The notes under the pieces are model-generated. The model was not told the DNA's origin and did not search any database. It saw only the letters and a list, made by a program, of their open reading frames with translations. From Amphibalanus amphitrite (taxonomy: Eukaryota > Arthropoda > Thecostraca > Balanomorpha > Balanidae): a stretch of DNA of 64,000 nucleotides. The translations under genes and the position numbers were made by a program. Within the stretch, counting starts at the first letter, position 1; every line of letters starts with the position of its first letter. This document shows positions 1,227 through 59,006 of this stretch, piece after piece. The stretch covers positions 31,387 to 95,386 of the forward strand of contig NW_024883389.1 of NCBI RefSeq assembly GCF_019059575.1, in the 5' to 3' direction.

Positions 1227-2179
1227 TTAACCCTCGCCCATGTAGGGGGGGGGGTTGGTGCAACCCCCCCCCCTGAGGTTTTTCGGAAATAGTGCAAAAA
1301 CGGCGGCGCGCAGCGCCGCCAAATTTTGGGTACCTTATGGGGCAAACCTTGCGCATCTTTTGATAAAAAAAATTGACCGGGTCATGTCAGGTCACGGAGT
1401 TATGACGTCACAAAGGGAACAGCCTCCGGCCGGATTTTCACAAACTGAGTGCCAACGCCCGAGGTTTCCTGCCGGTGGTACGGACATCGGTTGATGGATC
1501 GTGATGAAACTTCCCATGCATGTTGGGGCAAGTATTGGCTATCATATGGTATAAGAAACTTGACCGGGTCAGGTCAGGTCACGGAGCTATGACGTCACAA
1601 GAGGAACAGCGTCCGGTACTATTTTTGAAAAGCGCCCGAACCACTATTTTGCTAATTCTTGTCACCTCAATGGGAATATGCAGCAATATTAGCTTCTATA
1701 GGGAGCAAATGGACATCCCAAATCCAAAAATACAATCAGATTTCAAAAATTTAAATTTTGATTTTTCGAATTTCTGCCGCCGACTGTGACCTTGCCGACT
1801 TCCGGCGCTCCCAACGCGCCATTTTTAGAGCTAGGGAAACGAAATACATACCAAACGATAGAGAATTGATCAAGGAACACGATAGTGAAGGTTTCAAGTC
1901 GATATCTCCAACCGTTTTGCCGCAATCGCCGCGGAAAATTCGAAAAAGTCTATTTTTCCGAAAATTTGACCTTTGACCGGTCAAAAGTAGGTCAAATGTT
2001 GACCTAGGACCAAAAAATATACCACCAATCGCGAGATCTCGGCGAGAGCAATCCGTTGGTCTTTTCCGCTAAGCTCTACGACGCTCCGTTTTCAAACGCC
2101 AAGGGGGGGGGGGTCGCACCAACCCCCCCCCCCCTGCATGGGCGAAGGTGGCAGATCGCCGTTTACGGGCGAGGGTTAA
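1227..2179. mobile_element. TTAA-flanked element, family A copy 1 (intronic)
   Basis: TTAA (1227-1230) is followed by CCCTCGCCC and the other end reads GGGCGAGGG then TTAA (2176-2179), a perfect 9-bp terminal inverted repeat. Both ends carry a G-tract/C-tract hairpin (1245-1273 and 2103-2133) with the same near-palindromic loop, GGTTGGTGCAACC, in inverted orientation. The interior holds two TGACGTCA palindromes and many AGGTCA half-sites. It is clearly homologous to 58053-59006 over most of its length. No transposase reading frame is present. Structure suggests a piggyBac-type non-autonomous element; superfamily is inference from TTAA plus CCC...GGG ends. Confidence 0.8.
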
Positions 2180-2234
2180 GTTTGCATGCAATAACATAAG
2201 AGTCAATAAAGCGTAATGTCACGCTCGGGCTCAC

Positions 2235-2360
2235 CGGCTCCGCCGTATCCACCGCTGTGGCCTCCACTGTACCCGCCGTGCCCTCCGCCCTTGTTGAACT
2301 TGCTGGTCAGCTTGTTGGCCAAACTGGTGAGGAACCGTCCCTTGGTAGTAAGCAGGCGAC
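2235..2360 (-). CDS. Lys/Gly/His-rich exon (second visible exon of the cuticle-type gene)
   Basis: Minus-strand acceptor CGTTTCCCAG ends at 2361 and donor GCCG|GTGAGC follows base 2235, giving 126 nt. Entry and exit are both phase 1, matching the donor of exon 5049-4800 and the acceptor of exon 929-693. The product has a basic amphipathic stretch (GRFLTSLANKLTSKFNKG) that closely echoes the KKGRLFSGIKHKI-type stretch of the upstream exon, followed by a GGGHGGYSGGHSGGYGGA tail. The pairing of a Lys/Leu helix-like module with a Gly/His/Tyr module in two successive exons suggests exon duplication. The gene function is inferred only from composition (secreted structural or cuticular protein). Confidence 0.6.
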
Positions 2361-2600
2361 CTGGGAAACGTTAGGGGCACTTCACGTGAGCTCTATTACA
2401 GGACTTGTCCCCCAGTGGTAAGCAGACGGTAAAAAGCGATAAAGAACATTTCACATTGGGCATAAGTCTTATTACAGGGACCTTCCCTTGGTGGTTGGTA
2501 GATGGTATGGAGCAGTAAAGAACACTTAACATGGGTTCTATTAGAGGAGCATTCCCTTGCTGGTTTTCAGACGACCTGGGATCTAAACAGTCCAGATCAG
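2328..2600. repeat. About 3.5 tandem copies of a ~72-76 bp unit overlapping an exon edge
   Basis: Units share CTTCCCTTGGT..GTA, AAAGAACA, and a TCTATTAGA/TCTTATTACAG-like end (near 2391, 2469, 2537). The first unit overlaps the 5' end of the minus-strand exon 2360-2235, including its acceptor, so the duplication copied an exon-intron boundary into the intron. Confidence 0.5.
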
Positions 2601-2644
2601 GTCAGCAAAACGTTCGGAGCATTAGTGCTCAACTTTACCGGCTC

Positions 2645-4755
2645 GTGCCGCGTGTGCCGCATGAAGTTGTGTGTGCGGTGTGCGCCGTGTGTGCCGCTTG
2701 TAGTTATGTGTGCGCTGTGTGCGGTGTGTGCCGTCTGTAGTTATGTGTGCCGTCTGTAGTTATGTGTGCCGTCTGTAGTTATGTGTGCCGTCTGTAGTTC
2801 TGTGTGCCGTGTGTGCCGTGTGTGCCGTGTGTGCTCTGTATGCCGCCTGTAGTGTGTGCGGTGTGTGCGGTATGTGCGGTGTGTGCGGTGTGTGCGGTGT
2901 GTGCGGTGTGTGCGCCGTGCGGTATGTGCGGTGTGTGCGGTGTGTGCGGTGTGTGCGGTGTGTGCGGTGTGTCGTCTGTAGTTGTGTACCCTGTGTGCCG
3001 TGTGTGCCGTGTGTGCGATGTGTGCCGTGTGTGCCGTGTGTGCTCTGTGTGCCGCCTGTAGTGTGTGCGGTGTGTGTGGTGTGTGCGGTGTGTGCTGTGT
3101 GTGCTCTGTGTGCCGCCTGTAGTGTGTGCGGTGTGTGCGGTGTGTGCCGCCTGTAGTGTGTGCGCCGTGCGGTGTGTGCGGTGTGTGCGGTGTTTGCGGT
3201 GTGTGCGGTGTGCCGTCTGTAGTTGTGTGTGCCCTGTGTGCCGTGTGTGCGGTGTGCGCCGTGAGTACCCTGTGTGCCGTGTGTGCCGTGTGTGCTCTGT
3301 GTGCCGCCTGTAGTGTGTGCCGTGTGTGCTCTGTGTGCCGCCTGTAGTGTGTGCGGTGTGCGTGGTGTATGCAGTGTGTGCGGTGTGTACCCTGTGTGCC
3401 GTGTGTGTCGTGTGTGCGGTGTGTGCCGCCTGTAGTTGTGTGTGTGTGTGCCGTGTGTGCCGTGTGTGCTTTGTGTGCCGCCTGTAGTGTGTGCGGTGTG
3501 CCGTCTGTAGTTGTGTGTGCCCTGTGTGCCGTGTGTGCGGTGTGCGCCGTGAGTACCCTGTGTGCCGTGTGTGCGATGTGTGCCGTCTGGAGTTGTGCGT
3601 GCGGTGTGTGCCGCCTGTAGTTGTGTGTGGTGCAGTGTGTGCGGTGTGTGCGGTGTGTGCCGTGTGTGCTCTGTGTGCCGCCTGTAGTGTGTGCGGTGTG
3701 TGCGGTGTGTGCTTTGTGTGCGGTGTGTGTGGTGTTTGCGGTGTGCGCGGTGTGTACCCTGTGTGCGGTATGTGCGGTGTGTGTGGTGTGTGCGGTGTGT
3801 GCGGTGTGTGCGGTGTTACCCTGTGTGCCGTGTGTGCTCTGTGTGCCGCCTGTAGTGTGTGCGTTGTGTGCGGTGTGTACCCTGTGTGCCGTGTGTGCCG
3901 TGTGTGCCGTGTGTGCCGCCTGTAGTGTGTGCGGTGTGTGGTGTGTGTGGCGTGTGCGGTGTGTACCCTGTGTGCGGTGTGTACCCTGTGTGCCGTGTGT
4001 GCGGTGTGTGCCGCCTGTAGTGTGTGCGGTGTGCGCGGTGTGTACCCTGTGTGCCGTGTGTGCTCTGTGTGCCGCCTGTAGTGTGTGCGGTGTGTGCCGT
4101 GTGTGCGGTGTGTGCGGTGTGTGCGGTGTGTGCCGCCTGTAGTTGTGTGTGCGGTGTGTGCGGTGTGTGCCGTGTGTGCTCTGTGTGCCGCCTGTAGTGT
4201 GTGCGGTGCGTGTGGTGTGTGCTTTGTGTGCGGTGTGTGTGGTGTGCCGTCTGTAGTTGTGTGTGCCCTGTGTGCCGTGTGTGCGGTGCGTGTGGTGTGT
4301 GCTTTGTGTGCGGTGTGTGCTCTGTGTGCGGTATGTGCGGTGTGTGTGGTGTGTGCGGTGTGTGCGGTGTGTGTGGTGTGTGCGGTGTTACCCTGTGTGC
4401 CGTGTGTGCTCTGTGTGCCGCCTCTAGTGTGTGCGGTGTGTGCGGTGTGTACCCTGTGTGCCGTGTGTGCCGTGTGTGCTCTGTGTGCCGCCTGTAGTGT
4501 GTGCGCCGTGCGGTGTGTGGTGTGTGCGGTGTGTGCGGTGTGTACCCTGTGTGCCGTGTGTGCCGTGTGTGCCGCCTGTAGTGTGTGCGGTGTGTGCGGT
4601 GTGTACCCTGTGTGCCGCCTGTAGTGTGTGCGGTGTGTGCGGTGTGTGCGGTGTGTACCGTGTGTGCCGTGTGTGCTCTGTGTGCCGCCTGCGGTGTGTG
4701 CGGTGTGCGCGGTGTGTGCGGTGTGTGCGGTGTGTGCGGTGTGTACCCTGAGTGC
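2645..4755. repeat. 2.1 kb minisatellite, 9-bp unit GGTGTGTGC with variants
   Basis: Near-continuous 9-mers (GGTGTGTGC, CGTGTGTGC, CTGTGTGCC) punctuated by a recurring CCGCCTGTAGTGTGTG block that gives a higher-order pattern. Because the unit is three codons long, all frames stay open on both strands (Cys/Val-rich on plus, His/Thr-rich on minus), but nothing supports translation. It lies in the intron between exons 5049-4800 and 2360-2235. Confidence 0.9.
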
Positions 4756-4799
4756 CCGGTACACCTGTGTGTCACCCCCGGGACGCGGCGGCCGCTCAC

Positions 4800-5870: not shown

Positions 5871-6915
5871 TTAACCCTCGCCCTGGCAGGGCATTTTTCA
5901 TAACACGGCCTGGCAGGGGGGGGGGGGGTCGATGCGACCCCCCCTCGCGATTGGCTCCTATGGCACCTAGAAACACCAAATTTGGTAGGTAGGTGGGCCC
6001 CCTGGAGTTCTCGCCCCTGTGCAAATTTGGTTGCTCTAGGTCAATATTTAGGGGGGTTTTGGGGGGTATAAATGCAAAAATTTCGCTAAAAACAGGTCAA
6101 AAGTTTTTCGCTTATAACTTTTGATCTAATTAAGATACAGCAAAAAGAAAAGCACCAGTGAACTCAGCACGTCAAGGCGCGTCGCATGATATACTTTTTA
6201 GGTTGCTTAAGTGTACTTAAAGTTTTTCTTAAATTTTAAGTAAACTTAAATTAATAAATTAAGTTAAAGTTAACCAAATTGCATCATATCGCATATCATT
6301 CGATTCGGCTGATCACCAGGAACACAATGATACCATTTTTTAAGCTCTAGCGTCATTATGTGCCAAGTTATTGGCAAAAACGTCATTTGACCTCAGTTGA
6401 CCTCATTTGACCTGACCCATGGATAAGTACACCAAACAAAGAAGCACCAAGTGACCTGCTGTTAATTACTGTGGTTTCAAAGCACAAAAGTGATAGAACG
6501 AAGCGGATATCTCCAGTATTTTCCGAATTTAGTATTTTCCCATAGGCTTAACATTACGACGTAATGACCTCTAACTGACCTCAGGTCAGTGACCTCAAAA
6601 AACCCGAACTATATGTTATACAACTCGGTGAACTTAGCACATCCTGAAAGTTTGAAGGAAATCAGTGCAAAACTGTGAGTTGGACAGGTGCAAAAAGAAA
6701 ATTGAAATTTGACCATGACCTTGTACCGGTTTTTCTGACCTGGTGACCTGACCCAAGGTCACCCGGACCTGAAATTTTCAGGTCATATGTAAAAAGGTTG
6801 CCCCATAAGCTGTGCCAAATTTGGCGGCGCTGCGCGCCGCCGTTTTTACGCTATCTTCGAAAAACCTTAGGGGGGGGTCGCATCGACCCCCCCCCCCTGC
6901 CAGGGCGAGGGTTAA
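5871..6915. mobile_element. TTAA-flanked element, family B
   Basis: TTAA at 5871-5874 then CCCTCGCCCTGGCAGGG; the far end reads CCTGCCAGGGCGAGGG then TTAA at 6912-6915, a 16-bp matching terminal inverted repeat. Subterminal G-tract/C-tract hairpins have the loop TCGATGCGA on the left (about 5917-5945) and its reverse complement TCGCATCGA on the right (about 6871-6898). Interior is AT-rich with TGACCT/AGGTCA motifs. No open reading frame of note. Confidence 0.8.
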
Positions 6916-9999: not shown

Positions 10000-11237
10000 A
10001 AGGTGTAATCATCGAAAGCACGGTGCTAGTTGGGTACTAGTAAGAAAACTCCTTTTTGGAAACATCTTAACCCGCGACCTGGTGGGGGGGGGGCTATTTT
10101 TTGCCCCCCCCCCCTCCAGACTTTTCGATATATCTCCAGAACCGCTGCGCCGATCGTCACCAAACTTTCAGTACCCTCCCGGACATCAATTTTACACATT
10201 CTGACTAAAAAAAATTTCCAAAGGCTATGATAGGTTGGCCGGAAATGACGTCAGAGTGACGTCATGTTCTGCCGTTTTCGACCCAAAAAAGGGTTTCGCG
10301 GGAAGAGCTGTCAGGCCTATAGCTTTGCAAACACAGAAAAATCATAAAAACATAAAAGCTGTAGAATGAACAGGGCTACAAAACTGCTATCTCAGATTTT
10401 TGAAATTGTTGGATTTTGACCCCCAAAAATCAAAAAATATTTTTTTTGGATATAATAATCGAAAAATCCAAAAAAAAAATTGAATTTCGCAAAAACCGGA
10501 ATATATGTGATAGTCCTTACCACCTGCCATCCACATACCAAATTTGAGATTGATACCTCTTTTTTTGGCGAAGTTATAGCGAAAAAACTGTTCAAAATTG
10601 ATGACGTCAAATTTTCAAACTCAATTTTTAGCAATTCTAGACCCCGTAGTGCAAAACAAAGACCACCATTAGACTCCCCGTGACGAGTTGCATCGAATCA
10701 ATACCCATTTTATGCAAATCTATCAACTTTAAAATTTGGCCTTTTTGGCCTGACCTTGACCTGCACCTAAGCCGTACCTGATAGTCTTATAACCAACACC
10801 ATTGAGTTGGAAATGAAAAATTGGCCATAAAACATGCATCACACATCCTTAGTAAAGTTGGGCTCATGTGACCTGACCCGTGACCCTTGGTGACCTGACC
10901 TGTGACCTGACCTGGTATTGTCAGTGACCTCTAATAGCAACATATCTACTAGGCAACTGACGCCCTATCGCTGATTCTCGACAAAATGCGTTTTCCTCGG
11001 TGTTATAGCGCATTCCCTAGAAGACCCGTGAACGGTGAAACATTTCATCTTTGACCTGACCTGTGATGTCATCGGTGACCCCGAGGTCAATGAAATTTGG
11101 TTTCCTTCAACAAATTTGACAGGCCTTTCGAACGCCGTTTGAATTTTGCGGATCCGTCCAGTAGTTTCGGAGATACGAGGGGGGGGGCAAAAAATAGCCC
11201 CCCCCACCAGGTCGCGTTATAAACAGACCCTACCAGG

Positions 11238-12892
11238 GCCCGATTTCACCAAGTGAATATATTCCATTACGGCGGCGTACATATTCACTTTTGGCATATT
11301 ATGACATATTCAGTTTCACTAAACTCCGTACAGGGATACTTATTCAAGACAAAGACAAAGTATGACTGCATAAGTCCGTTGTTTTTTGGCATGCTATTAC
11401 ATTTGAGGTACTTCTGGTACGCCGATCTGCTTTTTCAACAGCTGTTTGCCGAGTTTGCTGGCATTGAAAGTATGCTACTTTTTGTGGCATACTTTGAGAA
11501 ACAGCTTGGCATACATCAATTTTTTTGTATGATAATGTTACAAATTTAATGACTTCGTCGATGCAACGTATGATAAAAACATGCCACAGGCTACGCAAAA
11601 AGTTTTTGATGTCATAATGGTTATTTCTTGCTGGATATATAGGGTATCGTGTGTCAGGGCTTATATTGAAATTAAACCCCAGAACAGCTATTTTTATAAG
11701 GCTTATCTCATCGTGGCATCACTGCGATTAAAATCACCCCATCATGCAGAAACACAAAAGGGAATTCCTTTTTTCATTCGCATTCCCGATTACATTGAGT
11801 TTTCCACTTTAAAAAACGACAGTTCACATTGTATTTTGATAACACAAAAGGCCAAAAGCGTTACAAATCTATCTCACCGTGATTATTACACCGTGCTCTT
11901 TATACAGCGTTTTACCGAAGAGGAAGTAAATAACTGGCGAGGGCGAGAGGAAGGACTGAAGTCCAGTCCACCAACGCCTTGTTGACATGCCCAGCATGTT
12001 GCATCACAAGTCACAACGCATTCGTTTACATTCGTTTTCATCGCCCACTTTTGCTATTTCTTTGCAGTACCCATATGCTGTCCAATGTCCATATTTTTGT
12101 GTGTGTGTTGTGGCCAAATGATTCAATTTATCACCGGCTTCCCGCTTCCGTTCAGGTTCAGTCTGCCGAATGATTCCGAAATATTCTCCATATTTGAAGT
12201 CGTCGGTAGACCCTTCGATTATTTAAAAACTTGATTCAAGTAATATTTCAGATAACTTGTCGGCTAGTCGGCCGTGCTCCTTGCTATCGTCAGTGATGGG
12301 TAGTTAGATAGGTATAAGATAGGTGCCTCAAGTAATGCCATTTCTTGTTCGACTTTATTTATATTTGCTTTGAACCACTCCAGAATTGCGTAGAAGATGT
12401 GAACAAATATTGAAGCAATATCTAATGAGAAGTAACTTGGAAGAAAAAATTAATATCAATTCAAAATCCAATAAAACCCACACACGCCAGTAACGTCAAC
12501 TGTGCTGCGCGGCTTGCTGCCGATTGTTTACATTTTTGGCTTTGGAATGTCATGCTCCCAGCAAAAATCAAGAGCATTATTAGCAATATTTGTTTAGGTA
12601 CTTCCTCTTGTATGATCAGCAAATTTAATTCTTATTAGCGTAGCTAGAAATTTTTTCCATAATATTGTATATCTGAGCATTTAAGCTCGTCGACTTTAAA
12701 TACGGAAAAATATAGTGACTGCATGTCCCCGACAAGAAAAGATATATGCATGCGCGCCGGTGGCTCCCAAAGTACGTAAAGCGGGCGTATTGAATATATT
12801 CCTGTGGCGAAACCGAATAGTATTATCGTCGTACTTTGTCGGTGTACTTTTCCAAAGTACACCAAGAATATATTCACTTGGTGAAATCGGGC
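11238..12892. mobile_element. 1.65 kb DNA element with 27-bp perfect terminal inverted repeats, nested in a family C element
   Basis: Begins GCCCGATTTCACCAAGTG and ends with the exact reverse complement; the match continues for 27 bp into AATATATTC. CCAGG at 11233-11237 and 12893-12897 is the target duplication (six bases if CCAGGG is counted). The undisrupted target is visible in the related copy at 46046-46058, which confirms the junctions. The interior is AT-rich. Superfamily is undetermined, since a 5-6 bp duplication with GCCCGATTT ends does not point to one I can name. Confidence 0.85.
11581..11985 (+). CDS. Unrecognised open reading frame inside the nested element
   Basis: 134 codons within the 1.65 kb TIR element. 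The product has mixed, non-repetitive composition (for example KSVTNLSHRDYYTVLFIQRF) but no motif I recognise and no DDE-type signature. It could be a fragment of an element-encoded protein or chance. No poly(A) or splice evidence was found. Confidence 0.2.
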   Translation: MPQATQKVFDVIMVISCWIYRVSCVRAYIEIKPQNSYFYKAYLIVASLRLKSPHHAETQKGIPFFIRIPDYIEFSTLKNDSSHCILITQKAKSVTNLSHRDYYTVLFIQRFTEEEVNNWRGREEGLKSSPPTPC

Positions 12893-19454: not shown

Positions 19455-20405
19455 TTAACCCGCGCCGGGCCGGTGCTCTGAGATTCCGCCCCGGGCCGGG
19501 GGGGGGGGTGTCTGAACACCCCCTTCTAACTCGGCTCCTGCGCCACGTAGCGACACGCGGTAAGCGGCAATCGAAAGAACGTCCAAAATAAGGACGAAAA
19601 CACTTCGGTCATTTTTGGGTCAGGTCAAAGGTCAGGTCATCAGAGGTCACCAAAGGTAAAATGTTAATTATTTCAACATTTTGGAAACTGCCAACGGCTA
19701 TCTCAGGAACCGATAGAGCTAGAGCGCCGCAGAAAAGCGCATTCGATGGCCTTTTTACATACTTTCTGAGTAATGTTCTCAGATTTGACCTCAGGTCAAC
19801 GGTTTAGCCTCCAGAGGGCAAAAACTCCAAAAATAGCAGATTTTACGAAAAACGTTTTTTCGGCAATAACTTTTGACTCAAAAGAGCCATGACATTACTT
19901 TTGCCACCATCGTGTTCCTCTCGTCGAGACGCGTCGAATGAACTATAATTTGACCCTGAAGAGTCAACTTGAAAATTTGACCTCAGGTCAAGGTCTTGAA
20001 CTGACCGGAAAAGGTCATGTTGCATATCAGTCGATCCGCAACGTCGAGCCGAACACATCTAAGGCGTTATCAGCGCTCTAGCACGCATCTATCCGAAGTT
20101 ATTAGCGAAAAACTGTTAGATTTTGTTCGTGACCTGAGTCCTGAGATGACCTTGGGGACATAACGATGTAGCTATATCGGTGTAGCTATAACGAGCATTC
20201 TTATTTTTTCTGGGGTGAGGTCACTTGGCGTGACCTGGTGACCTGACCTAAGGCGACCTGGGTCTGAAATTTTCACAACATGTGCGGAAAAGATGCACAA
20301 ACAGGTGTGCCAAAAACCGCGGCGCTCCGCGCCGCCATTTTTGAGATATCTGCGAAAAACCGCAAGGGGGGGGTGTTCAAACACCCCCGTCCCGGCGCGG
20401 GTTAA
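19455..20405. mobile_element. TTAA-flanked element, family D copy 1
   Basis: TTAA (19455-19458) then CCCGCGCCGGG; the other end reads CCCGGCGCGGG then TTAA (20402-20405). The left hairpin at 19499-19525 has the loop TGTCTGAACA and the right at 20366-20388 the loop TGTTCAAACA. Contains dense AGGTCA/TGACCT. Relative to 39111-40269 it lacks about 200 bp internally, so length variants arise by internal deletion. Confidence 0.8.
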
Positions 20406-27865: not shown

Positions 27866-28702
27866 ATTCGCCCGCACATGCCATTTTCCCAATCTAGAAC
27901 GCACATAGGAGGGGGGGGCATGCCACTCCCCCCCGCACTATTTCGTTCCTGCTGGAGATAGAGCTTCGCAGCAAAGACCAACAGATTCTTTGGGAAGAGA
28001 CAAATCCAGTGGTACCCAATTTTGCCTCATTAGGTCAATAATTGACCTTCCAGGTCAGGTTCAAGCTAAAAATGTTGCTTGTTGTGGCCACCGTTGGAAT
28101 ATCACGTGCTGTGCCCAGCCCATCATATACCGATGGCGTTGCCCTTTGTGGTGCCAGGCCAGCTAGAACAGCTCTTTGTCACACTATCCGACTAGGTTTT
28201 TACCGGCTGTGGTCATTTCAGGTCAAGCTAGGTCAAGGTCAATGATATGTGTTTGTATGTGTGTGTGTGTGTGTCTGCGTGTATACTGATGTGTGCACCG
28301 ATTGGTTTGTGTGTCCCTTTTACATGAGATCATGATCTGAGAAGCTTTTACCAAAAATGCAGTAAAAAAACTTCACTAAAAGCAAATTCAGCAAGCCTAA
28401 AATGTAATGTTTTTAGATGACCTAGGCGCCTAGGCTGACTTTGACCCTGACCCTGACATCTGCACATCGTCGAATAGCATGTTCCGTGATAGGTGGGAGG
28501 TAGGACTAGCAAGAACATACCGAACTCAAGGTGTTAAAAGCTCACAACTGTCACAAGACCCATATGTGACGCAAGATACGCATGACATGACTTGAAAAAC
28601 AAGGTCATATCTCCGAAACAAAAAACCACAGAAACTTGAAATTTTCAGTGGACGCTGAGAAAGGATAGAGGAGCAGCTATACGAAACATCAGGCTCCTAG
28701 CT
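27866..28702. mobile_element. Degenerate TTAA-type element, left end preserved
   Basis: TCGCCCGCACATGCCATTTT with a G8...C8 hairpin (27911-27938) matches the left end of the element at 40270. The terminal TTAACCC has decayed. The interior has TGACC/GGTCA motifs. The right end was not found before the next element at 28703. A (GT)n run sits at 28245-28275. Confidence 0.5.
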
Positions 28703-29566
28703 TTAACCCTCGCCGGTACAGGGGGGGGGGCGAATATCTCGCGTAAAAAGCGGCCGATCGCAACGAAACTTTCAGCACCCTGGCATTGATCAATTTTACA
28801 CCTACCCTGAAAATTTCATCACCCTGACCCAAATGACCTTTGACCTGTGACCTCTCTTCCGAGACCATGTTTGGCCGGAATCGCGATTCGGCGTATGTCG
28901 GCTCGTATTAGCCGCGCGTTTGCAAGCTTTTTGTGGTTTCAAACGTTCAAACATGTGATTTGATGTTGCTCCCTAAGCATTAGGGTGGGTGTCAAGGTCA
29001 CCTGAAGGTCAGGTCAGGTCATTGACCTTTGGTGACCTCGGTTCACAATTTCGAGTTTTACATTTTTCTAGGCTAGTTTTTGGAGCTGAATTCGAATTTA
29101 GCAACCATTTGAACATTTACCAAGTAGTTTTGGTGCCTTCGTAACATGTTACGAAGCTGTCAGAGGCGGATGACAGGTACTACGAATACCCGTCACGACT
29201 CCTACCGGTTGACCTGACCTGAACTGGCCCGACCTGGTCTAAGCGCTTAACGACATCATCGGTGATCAAAACTAACACGATATTCGTGATCAGCACCCCG
29301 GAAAACCCCTTAGCACTAGCAGCCGCACTTTACGACTTTCTAACAGGTCCCGATATTCCCGATTTTTGGGTCATTGACCTGACCTGGAAGGCCAACCGAT
29401 GACCTAGGACCTTAAAATTGGGTATCATTGGCTTCCTCTCGTGATGGGCAACACGCTCATTTTTCCGCGAAGCTCTAGCTCCATCAGGGGCCAAACGCGA
29501 GGGGGGGTCGTACCCCCCAATTGTGCCGTCGAAGGACTCAAAATGGCCTGTGCCGGCGAGGGTTAA
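28703..29566. mobile_element. TTAA-flanked element, family F
   Basis: TTAA (28703-28706), CCCTCGCCGGTACAGGGGG at the left; TGTGCCGGCGAGGG, TTAA (29563-29566) at the right. The right hairpin is GGGGGGGTCGTACCCCCC; the left C-arm is lost. AGGTCA motifs occur in clusters (28995-29030, 29205-29235). Confidence 0.75.
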
Positions 29567-31912: not shown

Positions 31913-32990
31913 TTAACCCGGCAGGCGGTGGGACTCCCGGCCACCTTCCGCGCGGTGGGGGGAGGGGGGGCATTTTTTGCCCCCCCCGTATCTCCGAAGC
32001 TACTTCACGGATCAGAAACATTCAAACGGTGTTCGATGGGGAGAGCGCTATAACATCGAGCACCATCGAGCAAAACGCATTTTGTCGAAAATCAGCGATA
32101 GGGCGTCGGTTGTCTAGCACATATGTTGCTATTAGAGGTTACTGGTCATACCAGGTCAGGTCACAGGTCAGGTCATCAAGGGTCACCACATAAACCCAAC
32201 TTAACTAAGGTTGTGCGATGCATGTTTTATGGCCAATTTTTCATTCCCAACTCAATGGTGTTGGTTATAAGACCATCAGGTACGGTTTAGGTCACTTTCT
32301 GGTGGAGGTCAGGTCAAGGTCAGGTAAAAAAAGGTCAAATTTCAAAGTTGCTAGATTTGCATGTAATGGGTATTGATTCGATGCAACTTGTCACAGGGAG
32401 TCTAATGGTGGTCTATGTTTTGCGCTACGAAGTCTTGAATTGCTAAAAATTGAGTTTGAAAATTTGACATCATCAATTTTGAACAGTTTTTTCGCTATAA
32501 CTTGGCCAAAAAGATGTATCGATCTCAAAATTGGTATGTAGATAGAAGGTGGTAGGAACTATCACATATATTCCGGTTTTTTCGAATTTCATTTTTTTTT
32601 TGGCTATTATATTCAAAAAATTTATTTATGGATTTTTTTTTGGTCAAAATCCAAAAATTTCACAAATCTGAGATAGCAGTTTTGTAGCCCTGTCAATTTT
32701 ACCCCTTTTATGTGTGAAACATTTTTCTGTATCTCCAAAGCTGTAGGCCTGACAGCTCTTCCCGCGAAACCATTTTTAGGTCGAAAATGGCAGAAATGAC
32801 GTCACTCTGACGTCATTAGCGGCCAACCTATCACAGCCTTTGGAAAATTTCTTAGTCACAATGTGCAATAGCTATTCACGGGAGGGTACTGAAAGTTTGG
32901 TGACGATCGGCGCAGCGGTTCTGGAGATATATAAAAAAAAACTAAAGGGGGGGGGGCAAAAAATGTCCCCCCCACCGCCTGGAAGGTTAA
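31913..32990 (-). mobile_element. TTAA-flanked element, family C copy in reverse orientation
   Basis: TTAA at 31913-31916 and 32987-32990. The interior (31990-32940) is the reverse complement of the family C copies at 10067 and 44867, including the paired TGACGTCA sites near 32797 and 32812. Hairpin loop CATTTTTTGC / GCAAAAAATG at both ends. Around 32150-32190 AGGTCA half-sites are packed as tandem GGTCA pentamers. Confidence 0.8.
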
Positions 32991-40269: not shown

Positions 40270-40716
40270 TTAACCCTCGCCCGCACATGCCATTTTCCCA
40301 TCCTAGAACGCACATGGGGGGGGGGGTTGCCACCCCCCCCCCCGCGCCATTTCGTTCCTGTTGGAGATAGAGCTCTTGACCTTTCGAGGTCAACATATAT
40401 ATCATTCGATGCGGATTGACGAGAGGATCACGATGATGCCCTTAGTTTGTTCCTATCTTGACTAATTCGAAAGTTATTCGAGAAAAACTCTCTCCATATC
40501 TAGCGCCGCCATTTTGACTTTTTCGACCCCTGTGACGTCATCTTTGACCTGACCTGAAAATGACCTTAGTAAAAATTGTAGATCTTGACCGTGCGTATCC
40601 GATGCCGTTTACCGTTTGTCGCTGCGATGTGTAGTTTTTGAGATCTGAAGGGGGGGCCGAATCGGCCCCCCCCGCCAGTTTCTTGTCCCGGCGGAGCCCG
40701 CCAGGAATAGGGTTAA
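40270..40716. mobile_element. Short chimeric TTAA-flanked element (family F'/E)
   Basis: TTAA at 40270-40273 follows the previous element's TTAA immediately. The left end CCCTCGCCCGCACATGCC matches 27866. From 40376 on it is instead the reverse complement of the 43714-44056 part of a family E element, ending CGCCAGGAATAGGG, TTAA at 40713-40716. Two element types therefore share one pair of ends. Confidence 0.7.
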
Positions 40717-41843
40717 GGCACCTAAAGCAATCTCACTTCAGGATGCAGCCCCTCGCCTTGGGACGGAGCGCCTGCGAAGTTGACCCACTGCGTCGCTGCC
40801 CTGTGCCCTGCCCAGTGCCCGCCCTGTGCCCTGCCTTGTGTCCTGCCCAGTGCCCTGTCCTGTACAGTAGGTCTATTAAACAAGTCCCCAGCACCAGTGG
40901 GCGCTGCCTTCACTGAGCCGAACCCCCGTCTGCCTGTCCCATATCGCGCCGGGCTCAGGTCAGGTAGGGTCAGCGGGACCGCTCGGTCCGGCCCGCGGGC
41001 GGTGGACGGGCGGCCGGTAACGCTTTCCGCCAGCCAGCTGTAGAATCCAACAAACGGGACGGCCACCGCTCAGCGCAGCGAAACCGGTGTTAAAGAATGG
41101 CAGTAGATGTTCATGGCTGCAATGATTATGAGATAGTTATTGTTAGCCCGTGCCCCACAGGCAGGGGCGGATCCAGAAAATCTCCAAGGGAGGGGCCATT
41201 AGAAACCAGGAGGCTCCCCCCCCATAATCCCACCTGTTGGAGGCCCCATCTTCCCACTTGTTGGCCCCCCCCCCCCCCAAAAAAAAAAACTGCGTCTATT
41301 GAGCTTATCTAGCTGTTCAGGCAACATCTCAACATCTGTGCAGGCTTGGAGGCCCTCTGTGCAGGTTAGGAGGCCCTGTAAAAGTGGTCATCTCTGTGAG
41401 TATAAGAGACCTCCAAGTTATGAAAAGCTTTACCAATCTTCTAACAAAGAAGTCTTCTCAGCTAGTCTTCTAAGAAATAACTAAGTGGGTAGGTAAAAAA
41501 AAACTCATCGGATTTCGGCCACTGTATTTTCAGGAGGCCCCCTTTTCAGCTTTTTAACTTTTTAACTTTTTATTTTATTTTTGAAAAAAATCGGCCAAGG
41601 GGGGGCCATGGCCCCCATGGCCCCCCCCCTTGTATCCGCGCCTGCCCACAGGAATGCCTAGACTCTCACGCTCTGTTGGAGGGGAAATGGGGATTGAGCA
41701 TCATTCTTATAACTCAGCTTTGGGCATTTAAGTGGTATTCGAAGTAGCGTCAAAAGTAGCAGAAAGAAGAAAAAATACTTCAGCCAATTTTGGATCGAGT
41801 CACAGCCAGAAGTCATGTCACTAGAGGTCATCGATGGTAAAAT
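40376..41843 (+). repeat. Left arm of a ~1 kb inverted duplication
   Basis: Reverse complement of 43070-44056 at very high identity, covering part of a TTAA element, its flank with a CCCTGCCCAGTGCC minisatellite, and unique DNA. It is interrupted only by the hAT-type insertion 41162-41644. A 114-codon frame (minus 41066-40722; plus 43364-43708) is open in both arms with about six amino-acid changes, but no domain is recognisable. Confidence 0.9.
41162..41644. mobile_element. hAT-type non-autonomous element in one arm of the inverted duplication
   Basis: Starts CAGGGGCGGATCCAGA; the end reads TTGTATCCGCGCCTG, an imperfect inverted match. The 8-bp duplication CCCACAGG is perfect (41154-41161, 41645-41652). 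The other arm has one uninterrupted CCCACAGG-type site (CCTGTGGGG near 43268), giving the empty-site allele. 483 bp, no coding capacity. Eight-bp duplication and CAGGGG ends indicate hAT. Confidence 0.93.
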
Positions 41844-43069: not shown

Positions 43070-44056
43070 ATTTTACCATCGATGACCTCTAGTGACATGA
43101 CTTCTGGCTGTGACTTGATCCAAAATTGGCTGAAGTATTTTTTCTTCTTTCTGCTACTTTTGACGCTACTTCGAATACCACTTAAATAGTTAAATGCTCA
43201 AAGCTGAGTTATAAGAATGATGCTCAATCCCCATTTCCCCTCCAACAGAGCGTGAGAGTCTAGGCATTCCTGTGGGGCACGGGCTAACAATAACTATCTC
43301 ATAATCATTGCAGCCATGAACATCTACTGCCATTCTTTAACACCGGTTTCGCTGCGCTGAGCGGTGGCCGTCCCGTTTGTTGGATTCTACAGCTGGCTGG
43401 CGGAAAGCGTTACCGGCCGCCCGTCCACCGCCCGCGGGCCGGACCGAGCGGTCCCGCTGACCCTACCTGACCTGAGCCCGGCGCGATATGGGACAGGCAG
43501 ACGGGGGTTCGGCTCAGCGAAGGCAGCGCCCACTGGTGCTGGGGACTTTTTTAATAGACCTACTGTACATGACAGGGCACTGGGCAGGACACAAGGCAGG
43601 GCACAGGGCGGGCACTGGGCAGGGCACAGGGCAGCGACGCAGTGGGTCAACTTCGCAGGGACTCCGTCCCAAGGCGAGGGGCTGCATCCTGAAGTGAGAT
43701 TGCTTTAGGTGCCTTAACCCTATTCCTGGCGGGCTCCGCCGGGACAAGAAACTGGCGGGGGGGGCCGATTCGGCCCCCCCTTCAGATCTCAAAAACTACA
43801 CATCGCAGCGACAAACGGTAAACGGCATCGGACACGCACGGTCAAGATCTACAATTTTTACTAAGGTCATTTTCAGGTCAGGTCAAAGATGACGTCACAG
43901 GGGTCGAAAAAGTCAAAATGGCGGCGCTAGATATGGAGAGAGTTTTTCTCGAATAACTTTCGAATTAGTCAAGATAGGAACAAACTAAGGGCATCATCGT
44001 GATCCTCTCGTCAATCCGCATCGAATGATATATATATGTTGACCTCGAAAGGTCAA
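43070..44056 (-). repeat. Right arm of the ~1 kb inverted duplication
   Basis: Inverted counterpart of 40376-41843, without the hAT insertion. Overlaps the left part of the TTAA element 43714-44705. Confidence 0.9.
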
Positions 44057-44705
44057 GGTCAAAGGTTGACCTCAGGTCACGTGACCTCGAGGTCATCATG
44101 TATATCATTCGATGCGTCTTGACGAGCTGAACACAATGAGACCATCCACGCGTCTGTATCTTGTTCCTGTACGGAGTTATTGGCCAAAAACCTTTGGTGA
44201 CCTTTGATGACGTCACATGACCTCACAGCTGCCCAACAGCAAAACAGACCTCAAGGTAGTGAAGTTTGATCGTATATGAAGTCATGTATGGTATATGGGG
44301 CCATTCCGACCCGTTTTAGTCGTAAAAACAGGGAGTTGATTTTTCCCCCATTGACTTATAATGGGGAGATCGCGAAACTGACCTGACCTTAGGTCACCGA
44401 TATCAAAATTCCGAGATATACAAATTGCACATACTGGTACCCTAACTAAACCCTGAAGAGAAGAAATTGATCGGTCAAAAACTCTAGCTCTGGCGTGATT
44501 GCAAACTTTTCTGAGGTAGGGTCACCAAACCGCCTCTGGTGACCTGACCTGAGGTCAGATCAACTCAAAATTTTCAGACATGTTGCGTAGAAGCCTTTTA
44601 GGAAAAGTCAGAAAATTTGAGCTTCCTAGCTCAACGCGTTTGGGAGAAATAACCAAACAACCTCAGGGGGGCTCCTGAGGCCCCCCCCGCCAGGAATTGG
44701 GTTAA
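43714..44705. mobile_element. TTAA-flanked element, family E
   Basis: TTAA (43714-43717) then CCCTATTCCTGGCGGG; the right end CCCGCCAGGAATTGGG then TTAA (44702-44705). Left hairpin GGGGGGGCCGATTCGGCCCC; right hairpin GGGGGGCTCCTGAGGCCCCC, so the two loops differ. Several AGGTCA clusters (44050-44100, 44540-44560) and TGACGTCA at 43892 and 44209. Confidence 0.8.
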
Positions 44706-44866: not shown

Positions 44867-46062
44867 TTAACCCGCGCCCTGGTGGGGGGGGGGGGCTATT
44901 TTTTGCCCCCCCTCCAGACTTTTCGATAGATCTCCAGAACCACTGCGCCGATCGTCACCAAACTTTCAGTACCCTCCCGGACATCAATTTTACACATTGT
45001 GACCAAAAATTTTTTTCCAAAGGCTATGATAGGTTGGCCGGAAATGACGTCAGAGTGACGTCATGTTCTGCCGTTTTCGACCCAAAAAAGGGTTTCGCGG
45101 GAAGAGCTGTCAGGCCTATAGCTTTGCAAATACAGAAAAATGATACAGACATAAAAGCTGTAGAATGAACAGGGCTACAAAACTGCTATCTCGGATTTTT
45201 GAAATTTTTGGAATTTGACCCCCAAAAATAAAAAATAGATTTTTTTAATATAATAGCCAAAAAATCCAAAAAGTTTTTTGAATTTCGAAAAAAACCGGAA
45301 TATATGTGATAGTCCCTACCGTCTTCCATCTACATACCAAATTTGAGATCGATACCTCTTTTTTTGGCCAAGTTATAGCGAAAAAACTGTTCAAAATTGA
45401 TGACGTCAAATTTTCAAACTCAATTTTCAGCAATTATAGACCTCGTAGCGCAAAACAAAGACCACCATTAGACTCCCCGTGACGAGCTGCATCGAATCAA
45501 TACCCATTTTATGCAAAAATATCAACTTTGAAATTTGACCTTTTTTGACCTGACCTTGACCTGACCTCCACCAGAAAGTGACCTAAACCGTACCTGATGG
45601 TCTTATAACCAACACCATTGAGTTGGAAATGAAAAACTGGCCATAAAACATGCATCGCACAACCTTAGTAAAGTTGGGTTCATGTGGTGACCCTCGGTGA
45701 CCTTTGGTGACCTGACCTGTGACCTGACCTGGTATGACCAGTGACCTCTAACAGCAACATATCTACTAGGCAACTGACGCCCTATCGCTGATTCCCGACA
45801 AAATGTGTTTTCCTCGGTGTTATAGCGCATTCCCTAGAAGACCCGTGAACGGTGAAACATTTCATCTTTGACCTGACCTGTGACGTCATCGGTGACCCCG
45901 AGGTCAATAAAATTTGGTTTCCTTCGACAAATTTGACAGGCCTTTCGAACGCCGTTTGAATTTTGCGGATCCGTCCAGTAGTTTCGGAGATACGAGGGGG
46001 GGCAAAAAATAGCCCCCCCACCAGGTCGCGTTATAAACAGACCCCACCAGGGCGCGGGTTAA
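44867..46062. mobile_element. TTAA-flanked element, family C copy 2 (intact ends)
   Basis: TTAA (44867-44870), CCCGCGCCCTGGTGGGGG; right ACCAGGGCGCGGG, TTAA (46059-46062). Hairpins at 44882-44911 and 45996-46020 share the loop CTATTTTTTG in inverted form. About 90% or more identical by eye to the split copy at 10067 and shows that copy's uninterrupted right end. An older end-like CACCAGGTCGCG lies 30 bp inside the right terminus. Confidence 0.88.
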
Positions 46063-47640: not shown

Positions 47641-48104
47641 GTGGGCTGAGTGATTGCTGAGTGCGATGAGTGTGGGGGTGAGTGTCGTGATTGCGGGTGC
47701 TCCCAGCTCCTGTGCTCAGTGCGAGTGATCCTGTGTTCAGTGCGGGTGCTCCCAGCTCCTGTGTTCAGTGCTCCGGTGTTCAGTGCGGCTCGGGGGCCTC
47801 TCGGGCGATATTCCGGTCTAATGGGAACTGCACACGTCCGGTGTGTGCTCGGCCCTGGCTCTGTGTCTGTGTGTCTGTGTGTCTGTGGATGTGGGAGCGG
47901 ATATTCGATCAGGTCAAGGCTGGAGGGGGAGGGGGAGGGGGAGGGGGCAGGGAGTCGGTCACGACGGCGGGCGTCTAACAGGCGAGATAAACACTCGGAC
48001 CGCCGCGGGGGTCGCCGCGGGGTCACCGCGGGTCACACGGGACCGCTGAGACAATGGGACGCCAGTGACGGACAGCCGAGGCACGGACCGTCGACGCGCC
48101 GTGA
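47641..48104. other. Unique sequence with short local repeats
   Basis: GGGTGCTCCCAGCTCCTGTG occurs twice (47695, 47743); GTGTCTGTGTGTCTGTG at 47870 and a GGGGGA run at 47930. No gene recognised. Confidence 0.4.
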
Positions 48105-49557
48105 GACAGGCGGGGGAGGCAGTGAGACAGAGGGGCAGGCAGTGAGACAGAGGGGCAGGCAGTGAGACAGAGGGGCAGGCAGTGAGACAGGCGGGGGAGG
48201 CAGTGAGACAGAGGGGCAGGCAGTGAGACAGAGGGGCAGGCAGTGAGACAGGCGGGGGAGGCTGTGAGACAGAGGGGCAGGCAGTGAGACAGAGGGGCAG
48301 GCAGTGAGACAGGCGGGGGAGGCTGTGAGACAGAGGGGCAGGCAGTGAGACAGGCGGGGGAGGCTGTGAGACAGAGGGGCAGGCAGTGAGACAGAGGGGC
48401 AGGCAGTGAGACAGGCGGGGGAGGCTGTGAGACAGAGGGGCAGGCAGTAAGACAGAGGGGCAGGCAGTGAGACAGGCGGGGGAGGCTGTGAGACAGAGGG
48501 GCAGGCAGTGAGACAGAGGGGCAGGCAGTGAGACAGGCGGGGGAGGCTGTGAGACAGAGGGGCAGGCAGTGAGACAGGCGGGGGAGGCAGAGAGGCAGAG
48601 GGGCAGGCAGTGAGACAGAGAGACAGGCAGAGAGGCAGAGGGGCAGGTAGTGAGACAGAGGGGCAGGCAGTGAGGCAGGCGGAGGAGGCAGTGAGACAGA
48701 GAGGCAGGCAGGGAGACAGGCGGAGGAGGCAGTGAGACAGAGAGGCAGGCAGTGAGACAGAGGGGCAGGCAGTGAGACAGAGGGGCAGGCAGTGAGACAG
48801 AGGGGCAGGCCGTGAGACAGGCGGGGGAGGCTGTGAGACAGAGGGGCAGGCAGTGAGACAGAGGGGCAGGCAGTGAGACAGGCGGGGGAGGCTGTGAGAC
48901 AGAGAGACAGGCAGAGAGGCAGAGGGGCAGGTAGTGAGACAGAGGGGCAGGCAGTGAGGCAGGCGGAGGAGGCAGTGAGACAGAGAGGCAGGCAGGGAGA
49001 CAGGCGGAGGAGGCAGTGAGACAGAGAGGCAGGCAGTGAGACAGAGGGGCAGGCAGTGAGACAGAGGGGCAGGCAGTGAGACAGAGGGGCAGGCAGTGAG
49101 ACAGGCGGGGGAGGCTGTGAGACAGAGGGGCAGGCAGTGAGACAGAGGGGCAGGCAGTGAGACAGGCGGGGGAGGCTGTGAGACAGAGGGGCAGGCAGTA
49201 AGACAGAGGGGCAGGCAGTGAGACAGAGGGGCAGGCAGTGAGACAGGCGGGGGAGGCAGAGAGGCAGAGGGGCAGGCAGTGAGACAGGCGGGGGAGGCAG
49301 TGAGACAGAGGGGCAGGCAGTGAGACAGAGAGACAGGCAGAGAGGCAGAGGGGCAGGTAGTGAGACAGAGGGGGAGGCAGTGAGACAGGCGGGGGAGGCA
49401 GAGAGGCAGAGGGGCAGGCAGTGAGACAGGCGGGGGAGGCAGTGAGACAAAGGGGCAGGCAGTGAGACAGAGAGACAGGCAGAGAGGCAGAGGGGCAGGC
49501 AGTGAGACAGAGGGGCAGACAGTGAGACGGGCGGGGGAGGCAGTGAGACAGGCGGAG
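48105..49557. repeat. 20/21-bp purine-rich array, about 70 units
   Basis: GCAGTGAGACAGAGGGGCAG alternates with GCAGTGAGACAGGCGGGGGA-type units and others (GCAGAGAGGCAGAGGGGC, AGGCGGAGGAGGC). Blocks of several units recur (for example 48590-48760 and 48898-49080 are near copies), a higher-order duplication. The Leu/Pro/Cys-rich minus frames are not credible genes. Confidence 0.93.
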
Positions 49558-49610
49558 CACAGCCGTAATCTAATCACCACGCTGTAGGTGATGGCTTGTG
49601 ATGTTATTGC

Positions 49611-55217: not shown

Positions 55218-55249
55218 CCAGTACTCAGTACATCCTTTATACAAGTAAA

Positions 55250-55880: not shown

Positions 55881-55949
55881 GCACATGCCACGACCGTCAC
55901 TGAGATGTATCAAAAGTAGTCAATTACGGGGTAGAAGGGATGGGGATAC

Positions 55950-57655
55950 TAGAGTTCTGCACGGCTGCAATTTTCCACAGCCTAGCCGCCCCGCAGCCGT
56001 GGCTCCACAGCCACAGCCGCCCACAGCCGTGGCAAACTGTGGGCAGCCAGCCGTCAGCCGGCCGTGATGAAATGCAACCAAATAGTATATAATAAGTTGT
56101 TTTTAGTTGAAACATATAGCCAAAAGCACATTGCAATGGGCTATAGATTCTCAAGCTCATGAAGCATCATAGGCTAAGTGGTTGTGTATCTGGCTTTAGG
56201 CCGAAGGCCTGAAGCCTGATGCGCATCGCATGCCTACACAAGCCCTTGCAAGGGGTTAAGAAAGATGGGTAGGTTAGGTAAGGTAGGTACCTACATCAAC
56301 AGAAAACATAAACAACGAACCAGAATAGAAGCACTAGCAGTGTAGAATAGACATCTAATGCCAAATCCTGAAGCATGGTTGTGGGACAGAACAACAGACC
56401 CTGATGCTTTTCATTATCAATGTTAGGTATGGAAAATGAAACTGAAGTTGATGGACAAACAGTGATTGTCTAGTCAAAACTCTTGCTTCTTTCTTACCCT
56501 GCATATTTTCTGGGGTGTGATATGCCAGGCTTGAAGCAACCTTCTGAGCAAGTCTCCAACTAATTTGATATGCAAGGCATCAAAACACTAGTGAGCATCC
56601 AAGAAAGAAAAACATTCATCTATTTTGATTTTTCCAAATAATGATCTTCGCTCAAATCCCCAAGGACGTGCGATTGCTCTTTCAATCAAAAATTTTACTT
56701 GAGTCAAATGACGTAAAAAGCAAAGAAGTGGCAATAAATTGTTTTGTGTCACCATAAACAGCCATAGAAATCATAATTAATCAATAATAATGCTATACAG
56801 TTAAAAATTTGCTCTCAAACAAATATCAATTATCAAATTTTTACATTTTTAGAGGAAGACGTCATTATATTAGTAAAATCAACAGCTCGCGTAAGAAATA
56901 TTGTGTTCAGGGTTTTCACCGTCATGTGAATTACGTGTTCAGGGTTTCCACCATCATGTGAATTAACCGTAAATAAGGTTCATACTCACTTATAATCTAA
57001 TTCCATTGGCTTCGTTGATCAGCATTTTCTGTTAGCGGTCACTCACACGCCAGTTAGAACATAAAGCGCCAGTTTTATATTATGTAATTGGACTTGCCGA
57101 AAATCCAGAAGTACATCTAAGAGTTATTTTAGATAATATTTTATGAAGCCTTTACCTGCCTTTACCTAGGCGTGATTTCTTTTTCTATTACCTGAAAGAA
57201 TTATTGAACGCTCATCTTCAATAGCTGTAAGGTGCTCTCCTAATGACCAGGTAAGATTGAGATTGATTTGAGGGGGATGTGACAGCAACATGTTGCATTT
57301 TCTGAAACTGTCAAGCTATTGATGATGAAGGAACAATTGGTGCCTATAATTAGTATTCTGTACCAGAGTGCAAACTCTTCTACAGCAAATGGTAAAACCA
57401 TTACAGGTTTTCAAAGGCTTCACCACTTTCAATATTGCTGGGCATCCTTTGCATGATTTTTACAGGCTAGGCTGCTTATCAGAATGTAAGATTAAGGATT
57501 TAAAATTTTATATTTGAGTACTTAAGATTGAGCTTGAAATCTCACAGCCGTGGCCACAGCCGTAGCCGTGTTCTTGGAGATATTTGCAGCCGCCCCGGCC
57601 CACAGCCGTGGGGCTGCAGCCAGCCGCGGCTGCAGCCGGCCGGTGCAGACCTCTA
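55950..57655. mobile_element. hAT-type element with GCCGTGGC subterminal repeats
   Basis: TAGAGTTCTGCACGGC at the left and GCCGGTGCAGACCTCTA at the right, with the perfect 8-bp duplication GGGGATAC (55942-55949, 57656-57663). Both ends carry clusters of CACAGCCGTGGC (55978-56070, 57543-57640), the arrangement typical of hAT transposase-binding repeats. The 1.4 kb interior is AT-rich and lacks a transposase frame. Confidence 0.93.
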
Positions 57656-57663
57656 GGGGATAC

Positions 57664-58052
57664 CCAGCAAAAAAGACCGCAGGCCAATCGGTCCAGCGGA
57701 TGCTGAGATATAAGCCTCTCAAAGCGTTACAGGACGGGCCGGGCCGGGCGGGGCCGCTTATACTGAGATTTTATAACGACAACTCAAGAAACTCATGATT
57801 ACCAAACGATATCTATTTTTAAATTACTTTTAAATACACAAAGCTTTCGGTCACATACGTGATACGACCTTGATCACTGTGTTTCACAATGTTTCACAAT
57901 TATACAAACTTCGCAAAAATGATACAAAAAAAAAAACCGTCTAAAATTCTTAATGTGAAGCGCATGAAAATTTCCTAGCCTACTTTTGCCAAATTGTCAG
58001 GGAACTCAAATTTGTTTTTCAATAGAAAAACACAATTCTAAAGAATAGTGTT
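57664..58052. other. Flank of the hAT insertion, otherwise nothing recognised
   Basis: The first ~60 bp continue the repeat interrupted by the hAT element (GATGCTGAGATATAAGCC). The rest is AT-rich and featureless. Confidence 0.4.
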
Positions 58053-59006
58053 TTAACCCTAGAACGCCTAGGGGGGGGGGGGGTTGTATCACCCCCCCCC
58101 CCCTGAGGTTTTTTCGAAGTGCACGCTAAACGGCTTGTCGTAGCGGGCTGAAATTTTCAATACCCTCTGGGGCAACCTTTGCGCATCTTTTGCCAAAAAA
58201 AATTGATCGGGTCATGTCAGGTCACGGAGTTATGACGTCATAAGTGGTACAGCCTCCGGCCGACAGTTACCAAACGTGTGCGCCGAATCCCTAGGTTTTC
58301 TGCCGATGATACCCACATTGTTTGATGGATCATGATGAAACTTCCAATGCATGTTGGGGCAAGCATTGGCTATCGTGTGGTGCAAGAAAATTGACCGGGT
58401 CAGGTCAGGTCACGGAGTTATGACGTCACAAGAGGAACAGCGTCCGGTACTATTTTTGAAAAGCGCCCGAACCACTATTTTGCTAATTCTTGTCACCTCA
58501 ATGGGAATATGCAGCAATATTAGCTTCTATAGGGAGCAAATGGACCTTCCAAATCCAAAAATACAATCAGATTTCAAAAACTTAAATTTTGATTTTTCGA
58601 ATTTCTGCCGCCGACTGTGACCTTGCCGACTTCCGGCGCTCCCAACGCGCCATTTTTAGAGCTAGGGAAACGAAATACATACCAAACGATAGAGAATTGA
58701 TCAAGGAACACGATAGTGAAGGTTTCAAGTCGATATCTCCCACCGTTTTGCCGCAATCACCGCGGAAAGTTGAAAAAGTTTGATTTTTTCGGAAAATTTG
58801 ACCTTTGACCGGTCATAAGTAGGTCAAATGTTGACCTAGGACCAAAAAATATACCACCAATCGCGAGATCTCGTTGAGAGCAATCCGTTGGTTTTTCCTT
58901 CTAAGCTCTACGACCTTCCGTTTCGAAACGCCAGGGGGGGTCGTAACAACCCCCCCCCCCCTGGTCGTTCGTGTTATGAGAAATGGCCTGGTCGTGCGAG
59001 GGTTAA
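58053..59006. mobile_element. TTAA-flanked element, family A copy 2
   Basis: TTAA (58053-58056), CCCTAGAACGCCTAGGGGG; right end GGTCGTGCGAGGG, TTAA (59003-59006). Homologous to 1227-2179, nearly identical over 58430-58760. Left loop GTTGTATCAC, right loop TCGTAACAAC. Two TGACGTCA-like sites (58236 as TGACGTCATAAG, 58420). Confidence 0.85.

Follow-up and report, generated by a model that had tools for sequence, protein, structure and literature searches.

The hairpins of guanine and cytosine tracts lying just inside the transposon termini of a 64,000-nucleotide stretch of the barnacle Amphibalanus amphitrite genome (contig NW_024883389.1, positions 31,387 to 95,386; hereafter the window) were analysed in the window itself and across the 807.55-Mb A. 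amphitrite assembly. They are best read, with a probability of about 0.82, as the internal, subterminal palindromes carried by one clade of piggyBac transposons and by its short non-autonomous derivatives, which would be bound as duplex DNA by a dimer of the transposase zinc domain. This reading is carried by the anatomy of the ends, the identity of the transposases, the kinship of one window family (E) with a transposase-bearing element, the near-constancy of the core in another (A) and the palindromicity of the cores, the core being the bases that separate the two runs, taken in the direction from the tip into the element.

Hairpins and end anatomy

Seventeen hairpins with a G-run of at least seven, a loop of 3–14 nt and a C-run of at least seven were present in the window and none in 50 dinucleotide shuffles, and they were found inside the transposon termini, where an earlier note on this DNA had placed them. 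TTAACC or GGTTAA lay no more than 56 nt away for 15 of the 17, compared with 2.7% of random places, and the hairpins at 11179 and 27911 were judged by eye to be ends with a seemingly decayed outer tip. The loops of families A–D had been described as matched from end to end; the cores of families B and C were indeed identical at both ends, but those of families A (TTGGTGCAA at the short and TTGGTGCGA at the long end) and D differed by one base. The claim that loops differ completely between families did not hold, as the ends of families A, B and E all fit T-Y-G-N-N-N-C-R-A, with one family E end lacking the last A. The loops of family E were unlike at its two ends, as claimed, but this was no oddity of a single copy, the same pair (TTGTATCA(A) and TTGTTACGA) being found at the two ends of the transposase-bearing elements L068 and L071. 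Family A, the one family sampled in depth, gave no sign that in most copies the loop at one end varies independently of that at the other.

The paired elements carried TTAA at both ends (TTAT and ATAA were allowed in the parse), and the ends were of two kinds, with 13–14 nt from TTAA to the G-run at the short end and 39–42 nt at the long end; one long end stood at 47 nt because its G-run was interrupted. Of 31 pairs of neighbouring ends that face each other, taken from the window and the fetched loci (20 of the 31 from family A), 29 joined a short to a long end; the two exceptions were a family A copy whose G-run was broken and two ends brought together by chance next to an inverted duplication. 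Exact patterns on the plus strand of the genome returned 11,327 short ends, 15,905 long ends and 240 ends at an intermediate distance, with 0, 2 and 1 matches, respectively, for the reversed-pattern controls; counts from this strand alone were used, as the minus-strand matches included single sites several times over. Because the family A tip gave nearly equal counts on the two strands (926 and 1008), the minus strand should hold a similar number, which would correspond to some tens of thousands of elements. Five pattern matches were obtained in viral contigs, none of them resembling the barnacle ends by eye.

A table of 22 families was compiled by hand from the loci and from the matches listed for contig C1 (short and long ends) and for the intermediate distance, and the family counts given here and below apply to these matches and loci. 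Both ends were available on one copy for ten families (A, B, C, D, E, F, the element at 31913, L048, L064 and C702) and were paired through tip likeness for the others; tip lengths were counted in 18 families and outer core triplets in 21 of the 22, CTGAT being left out because its core is the same as that of CCCGTT. The long tip exceeded the short one by 26–28 nt in all 18 families, and the nine bases preceding the palindrome were duplicated at the long end, 7.28 of 9 being alike, compared with 3.63 when families were shuffled. Tips began with CCCT, CCCG or CCTT in nearly all families among the matches listed, the patterns requiring CC; the CCCG tips do not conform to the CC(C/T)T motif of PMC2872659.

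Transposases of the hairpin-ended elements

A search of the genome with PF13843 (DDE_Tnp_1_7) returned at least 116 matches, with flanks fetched for part of them and scores of 203–231 bits for the barnacle transposases. Hairpins were found at both ends of L064 (4723 bp) and L067 (4732 bp), around a transposase frame of 666 aa, and family E ends were found on L068 (3975 bp), whose frame is shifted before the zinc domain, and on L071, with a 590-aa frame that includes the zinc domain. Relative to the transposase, the short end lay on the 5' side and the long end on the 3' side, as in piggyBac. Family E of the window was 97.5% identical to the 3975-bp element over 395 aligned columns and 91.8% identical over 317 at the other end, and the roughly 230 bp between these matching ends gave no in-order match; family E is an internally deleted relative of the transposase-bearing element. 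The ends of family A were about 81–86% like those of the E-type element, of which family A is a sister family.

The protein from L071 (P0001) and that from L064 (P0002) were aligned with piggyBac (6x67) nearly to the C-terminus, with E values of 9e-79 and 1.3e-56, respectively, and with the cysteines and histidines of the zinc domain in register; P0001 was also 98% identical to an A. amphitrite protein. The AlphaFold2 model of P0001 (mean pLDDT 85) had 6x67 as its best Foldseek match (E 8.7e-37, TM 0.66/0.81). D243, D324 and D424 were invariant across 41 aligned proteins, and are taken to be the catalytic aspartates from the alignment to 6x67. C533, C536, C560, C563, C568, H571, C579 and C582 were kept in at least 90% of the 41, and the C-terminal pattern C-x2-C...C-x2-C...C..H...C-x2-C of the Trichoplusia ni type was present in the barnacle transposases.

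Transposases were tied to the hairpin ends by both ends in family E and L064, and less surely in three other cases. L076, part of a transposase at C552, is accompanied by a hairpin short end, with no long end seen nearby; at C702 a broken copy, two pieces of which are 54–58% identical to P0001, is flanked by a short and a long hairpin end with mutated TTAA; and the L069 transposase is faced by a hairpin short end (core CCAATTTG) 1667 nt upstream (L075:182). L069 was rejected as the autonomous partner of family F, as the family F hairpin near it faces away from the transposase and is part of a neighbouring F element, and hairpin tips near L059, L063, L065 and L070 were likewise assigned by orientation to neighbours and not to those transposases. 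For families A, B, C, D and F, no transposase was found among those with flanks fetched.

That the elements belong to some other TTAA-targeting group has a practically negligible probability. It would agree with the lack of a transposase frame in the window elements, where the 10 frames scanned of 155 listed gave no PF13843 match, but PF13843 transposases are encoded by longer copies that have these ends, which contradicts this explanation for family E; for A, B, C, D and F, the piggyBac assignment rests on the common end architecture.

In a tree of 19 transposases of the genome, the hairpin-end L064, L071 and L076 (the last with its short end only) were grouped on one side of a fully supported branch, together with two unlabelled members (L069 and L056), and eight families without hairpin ends were placed on the other. 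An ordinary palindrome was centred 23–24 bp from the 5' tip in five of the seven non-hairpin families with a legible tip (a perfect 20-mer in L029, an 18-mer in L055, a 16-mer with a spacer in L060 and weak AT repeats in L035 and L042); L030 and L039 had no palindrome at their legible 5' tip. The 5' palindrome centre of four hairpin elements was at 25.5–30.5 bp, shifted by the length of the G-run. The G/C tracts thus seem to have arisen locally, as an elaborated version of the standard site. One of the non-hairpin families, L042–L052 (tip TTAACCCATTAGTGCC), was represented by eleven fetched copies, which share one 604-aa open frame and have near-equal scores, and looks, from these copies, recently active; at L048 a copy is nested in a hairpin-type element.

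Variation of cores and arms

Examination of 30 family A tips gave 26 parsable hairpins at short ends and 25 at long ends, and the standard cores were found in 24 of the 26 and 23 of the 25, respectively; the unparsed or odd hairpins included interrupted or rearranged tracts (e.g., L001, L003, L019 and L026). Twenty-four two-ended copies, that of the window included, were aligned and fell into subfamily A1 (19 copies; e.g., L002), with a mean difference of 1.5%, gaps left out, and subfamily A2 (5 copies; e.g., L008), whose ends are as in A1 and which is 30% different over the element, so that two unlike interiors are carried on the same ends. The G- and C-runs of family A were 5–16 in length and uncorrelated within ends (25 and 23 cases; rank correlation −0.02 and −0.14) or between ends (22 cases), and concerted evolution of the two arms was therefore rejected for this family. 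Across the genome, exact patterns found the family A short-end core in its usual orientation 731 + 819 times and in the inverted orientation 0 + 0 times; inversion of the core driven by hairpin or cruciform formation was rejected on these counts.

At least 34 distinct cores were found in at least 22 families of this one genome. The outer three positions on either side of these 34 cores were in Watson-Crick pairing at 85 of 102 positions, compared with a mean of 37.7 when halves were shuffled among cores, none of 20,000 shuffles reaching 85. From the outside in, pairing amounted to 94, 82 and 74%, and then to 29%, and thus many different triplets keep their complement. In 18 of 21 families the two ends had the same outer triplet (mean after shuffling, 1.9), and in 8 of 22 the whole core was identical between them. 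Such identity would be beyond the need of a hairpin and is what a sequence-specific dimer would need, and common descent of the two ends could contribute to it. Some long cores were nearer to the reverse complement of the short core (L064, 8 versus 5 of 9; CCGTATA, 8 versus 5; CCCCGTA, 9 versus 6), a likeness that a dimer site would tolerate and that palindromic cores reduce to a weak sign.

These results bear on whether the stem-loop or cruciform itself is what is recognised, with single-stranded ends folding and being read by the transposase or a host factor, and the loop sequence being of minor importance. The G/C inverted repeats at both ends are as this explanation expects, and hairpins or cruciforms have been proposed for inverted repeats in piggyBac-like ends (PMC12324416). 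It was nevertheless judged improbable: pairing alone should matter to a stem-loop, and yet the sequence and orientation of the family A short-end core are kept, the lengths of the two arms are unmatched, the outer triplets agree between ends beyond mere complementarity, and five of the seven non-hairpin piggyBac families with a legible tip have short ordinary palindromes, two of them weak AT repeats.

The earlier note had left the choice between a co-evolving recognition module and a structural insulator that forms a hairpin, G-quadruplex or i-motif. The former was supported in so far as the hairpins have the position of the piggyBac palindrome, piggyBac transposases are encoded, and the cores are family-specific and usually common to both ends, and co-evolution of core and transposase is plausible from these sequences. 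The insulator was not: although G-runs reach 16, many arms have only G7 and lengths of 7–9 are common, there is one G-run per strand per end with a C-run able to pair with it, arm lengths are uncorrelated, and the sequence and orientation of the core are kept. That G-quadruplexes or i-motifs insulate or mark the element is very improbable, as this would also leave the 26–28 bp offset and the matching cores unexplained.

Proposed recognition of the ends

On the preferred reading of the hairpins as duplex palindromes, the transposase would cut and join at the TTAA tip, and its C-terminal cysteine-rich zinc domains, acting as a dimer, would bind the double-stranded palindrome just inside the tip. 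At the short (left) end the binding site would adjoin the tip, and at the long (right) end both the motif that precedes the palindrome and the palindrome itself would be shifted inwards by 26–28 bp, a shift by which the transposase may distinguish the ends and build an asymmetric synapse. The core between the G-run and the C-run would serve as the address of each family, and the runs would be this clade's version of outer half-sites, with lengths that probably drift through replication slippage.

Several results weigh against this reading. The tip segment is separated from the core by a G-run that varies from 5 to 16 bp, which leaves the core without a fixed phase relative to the tip, and tract length moves the core by up to about 10 bases, while spacing matters in engineered piggyBat and piggyBac ends; the former are described as spacing-dependent in PMC13405395, and a 5-bp insertion in the right end about halves piggyBac activity (PMC7351741). 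A flexible zinc-domain linker, or contact with just the innermost bases of the run, would allow such variable spacing to be tolerated. The zinc-domain piece alone gave no match in the Protein Data Bank (PDB), L066, a third copy of the L064 frame, has a long end and no recognisable short end at the expected place, and L056 (C778), in the same clade as P0001 and 60% identical to it, has no hairpin in its fetched flanks. The outer triplets differ between ends in 3 of the 21 families, including F, and the expected excess of changes in the core centre over the arms of the core did not reach significance (core centre 13/46, arms 11/84; p = 0.057).

A separate question, compatible with the preferred reading, is whether tract length has any role, or whether the tracts are neutral slippage by-products within a small ancestral palindrome of which only the core and a few G and C matter. 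This is possible, at rather less than even odds. Lengths vary strongly and without correlation among copies about 1.5% different elsewhere, assembly error in homopolymers may contribute to the variation, and tracts are interrupted or rearranged in some copies. On the other side, the family A hairpins whose core has nine bases (25 at short and 23 at long ends) had G-runs of 7–16 and C-runs of 5–13, none falling below G7 or C5 (the parse needed four C), and G/C tracts are known in this genome from one transposase clade and were not seen in the eight other families.

Comparison with known piggyBac systems

The barnacle ends are closest in layout to those of piggyBac (Ifp2) from T. ni, with which they have in common the TTAA target, a short left and a long right end, an offset of about 27 bp, a duplicated pre-palindrome segment, an internal palindrome near bp 25, the transposase fold and the zinc-domain Cys/His pattern. 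In T. ni piggyBac, as described in PMC7351741, the 63-bp right end (RE63) differs from the 35-bp left end (LE35) by a 17-bp insertion and a duplication, bp 34–63 of the right end resemble bp 7–35 of the left end, and the zinc-domain dimer binds a palindromic repeat at bp 17–33 of the left end. The T. ni palindrome is compact, a repeat of 19 bp that does not differ between the two ends (PMC11707139), whereas the barnacle elements have long, length-variable G/C arms around a core of 9–10 bp that is often slightly unlike between ends. The piggyBat element of Myotis lucifugus is alike in that a zinc-domain dimer sits on an imperfect palindrome just inside the tip, as would be the case in the barnacle, but its palindromes are confined to the left end and its zinc domain has a different fold (PMC11707139), and the barnacle transposases match piggyBac better than piggyBat.

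The CMITE elements of Acropora corals are known for conserved interiors, and the words "palindrom", "hairpin" and "GGGG" do not occur in the main text of PMC2872659. The PiggyBac-n_Aamp elements are also from A. amphitrite and of the piggyBac superfamily; that study excluded miniature inverted-repeat transposable elements (MITEs), and "palindrom" and "subterminal" are absent from the main text of PMC10813416. No report of G/C-tract palindromes at piggyBac ends was found in the literature searched, most subscription journals and Repbase lying outside the search. The earlier statement that no described family has this signature can therefore stand for the G/C-tract form but not for the layout, which is that of piggyBac. 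To our knowledge, the choice of a palindrome by zinc domains of the piggyBac type is known only from piggyBac and piggyBat.

Elements and other features of the window

The elements and ends are collected in Table 1. The two family F cores are clearly unlike, each being palindromic or nearly so. The 767-nt inverted repeat 40395–41161/43269–44035, 99% complementary, is an inverted duplication that copied a transposon end of family F. Outside the elements, a 953-aa open frame with SAP and DUF1759 domains was found at 23923–26784 (plus strand), which may be part of a BEL/Pao-type retroelement. Long tandem arrays were present at 2640–4760, 16625–18110 and 46181–49600, including a GTGTGCGGT-type satellite and 42-, 31- and 20-nt repeats.

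Table 1. Hairpin-bearing elements and isolated ends in the window (coordinates of the window; cores read from the tip inwards).
Feature	Position	Strand	Remarks
Family A non-autonomous element, 953 bp	1227..2179	+	TTAA at both ends; short left, long right; subfamily A1
Family A short-end palindrome	1245..1273	+	G10-TTGGTGCAA-C10
Family A long-end palindrome	2103..2134	-	From tip, G12-TTGGTGCGA-C11
Family B element, 1045 bp	5871..6915	-	Long left (5916-5944), short right (6870-6897); core TCGATGCGA at both
Family C element, copy 1	10067..11248	+	Palindromes: short 10084-10114, long 11179-11205; outermost long tip decayed, right end estimated via copy 2
Family C element, copy 2, 1196 bp	44867..46062	+	Palindromes 44884-44912 and 45996-46019; core CTATTTTTTG at both
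Family D element, 951 bp	19455..20405	-	Long left (hairpin from 19498), short right (from 20366); cores TGTCTGAACA / TGTTTGAACA
Family C-related element, 1078 bp	31913..32990	-	Palindromes 31964-31987 and 32947-32973; core (A)CATTTTTTG
Family F element, 992 bp	43714..44705	-	Long core CCGATTCGG (43757-43780), short core CCTCAGGAG (44666-44688)
Inverted 767-bp copy with family F long end	40395..41161	.	Palindrome 40650-40673; partner 43269-44035
Long end of a further family	40270..40343	+	Tip CCCTCGCCCGCACAT...; palindrome 40316-40343
Family E element, 954 bp	58053..59006	+	Ends match the 3975-bp transposase-bearing element
Family E short-end palindrome	58071..58103	+	G13-TTGTATCA-C12
Family E long-end palindrome	58934..58961	-	From tip, G12-TTGTTACGA-C7
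Long end of a family with core TAAATTTTA	85..164	-	Element continues past the left window edge
Decayed long-end palindrome	27911..27934	+	Probably CACAT family (by eye)
Decayed long end, tip 29566	29501..29566	-	Matching short tip may be TTAACCC at 28703

Significance

The G/C-tract form of the palindrome, with at least 34 cores in one genome, is new to the literature searched, and the underlying piggyBac layout was already known. It may tentatively be suggested that the palindrome is modular, a generic and extendable G/C scaffold being built around a swappable address of 3–4 bp, with at least 20 separate transposase-end pairs coexisting; with one scaffold common to all, a family could switch its address through a small number of compensatory core changes. 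If this is true, the modular address may have let twenty or more separate transposase-end pairs arise. One barnacle genome holds more than 20 end families, at least 34 cores and very many copies, with open transposase frames for some, and this natural series of cores would let the recognition code be read and orthogonal piggyBac pairs be tested.

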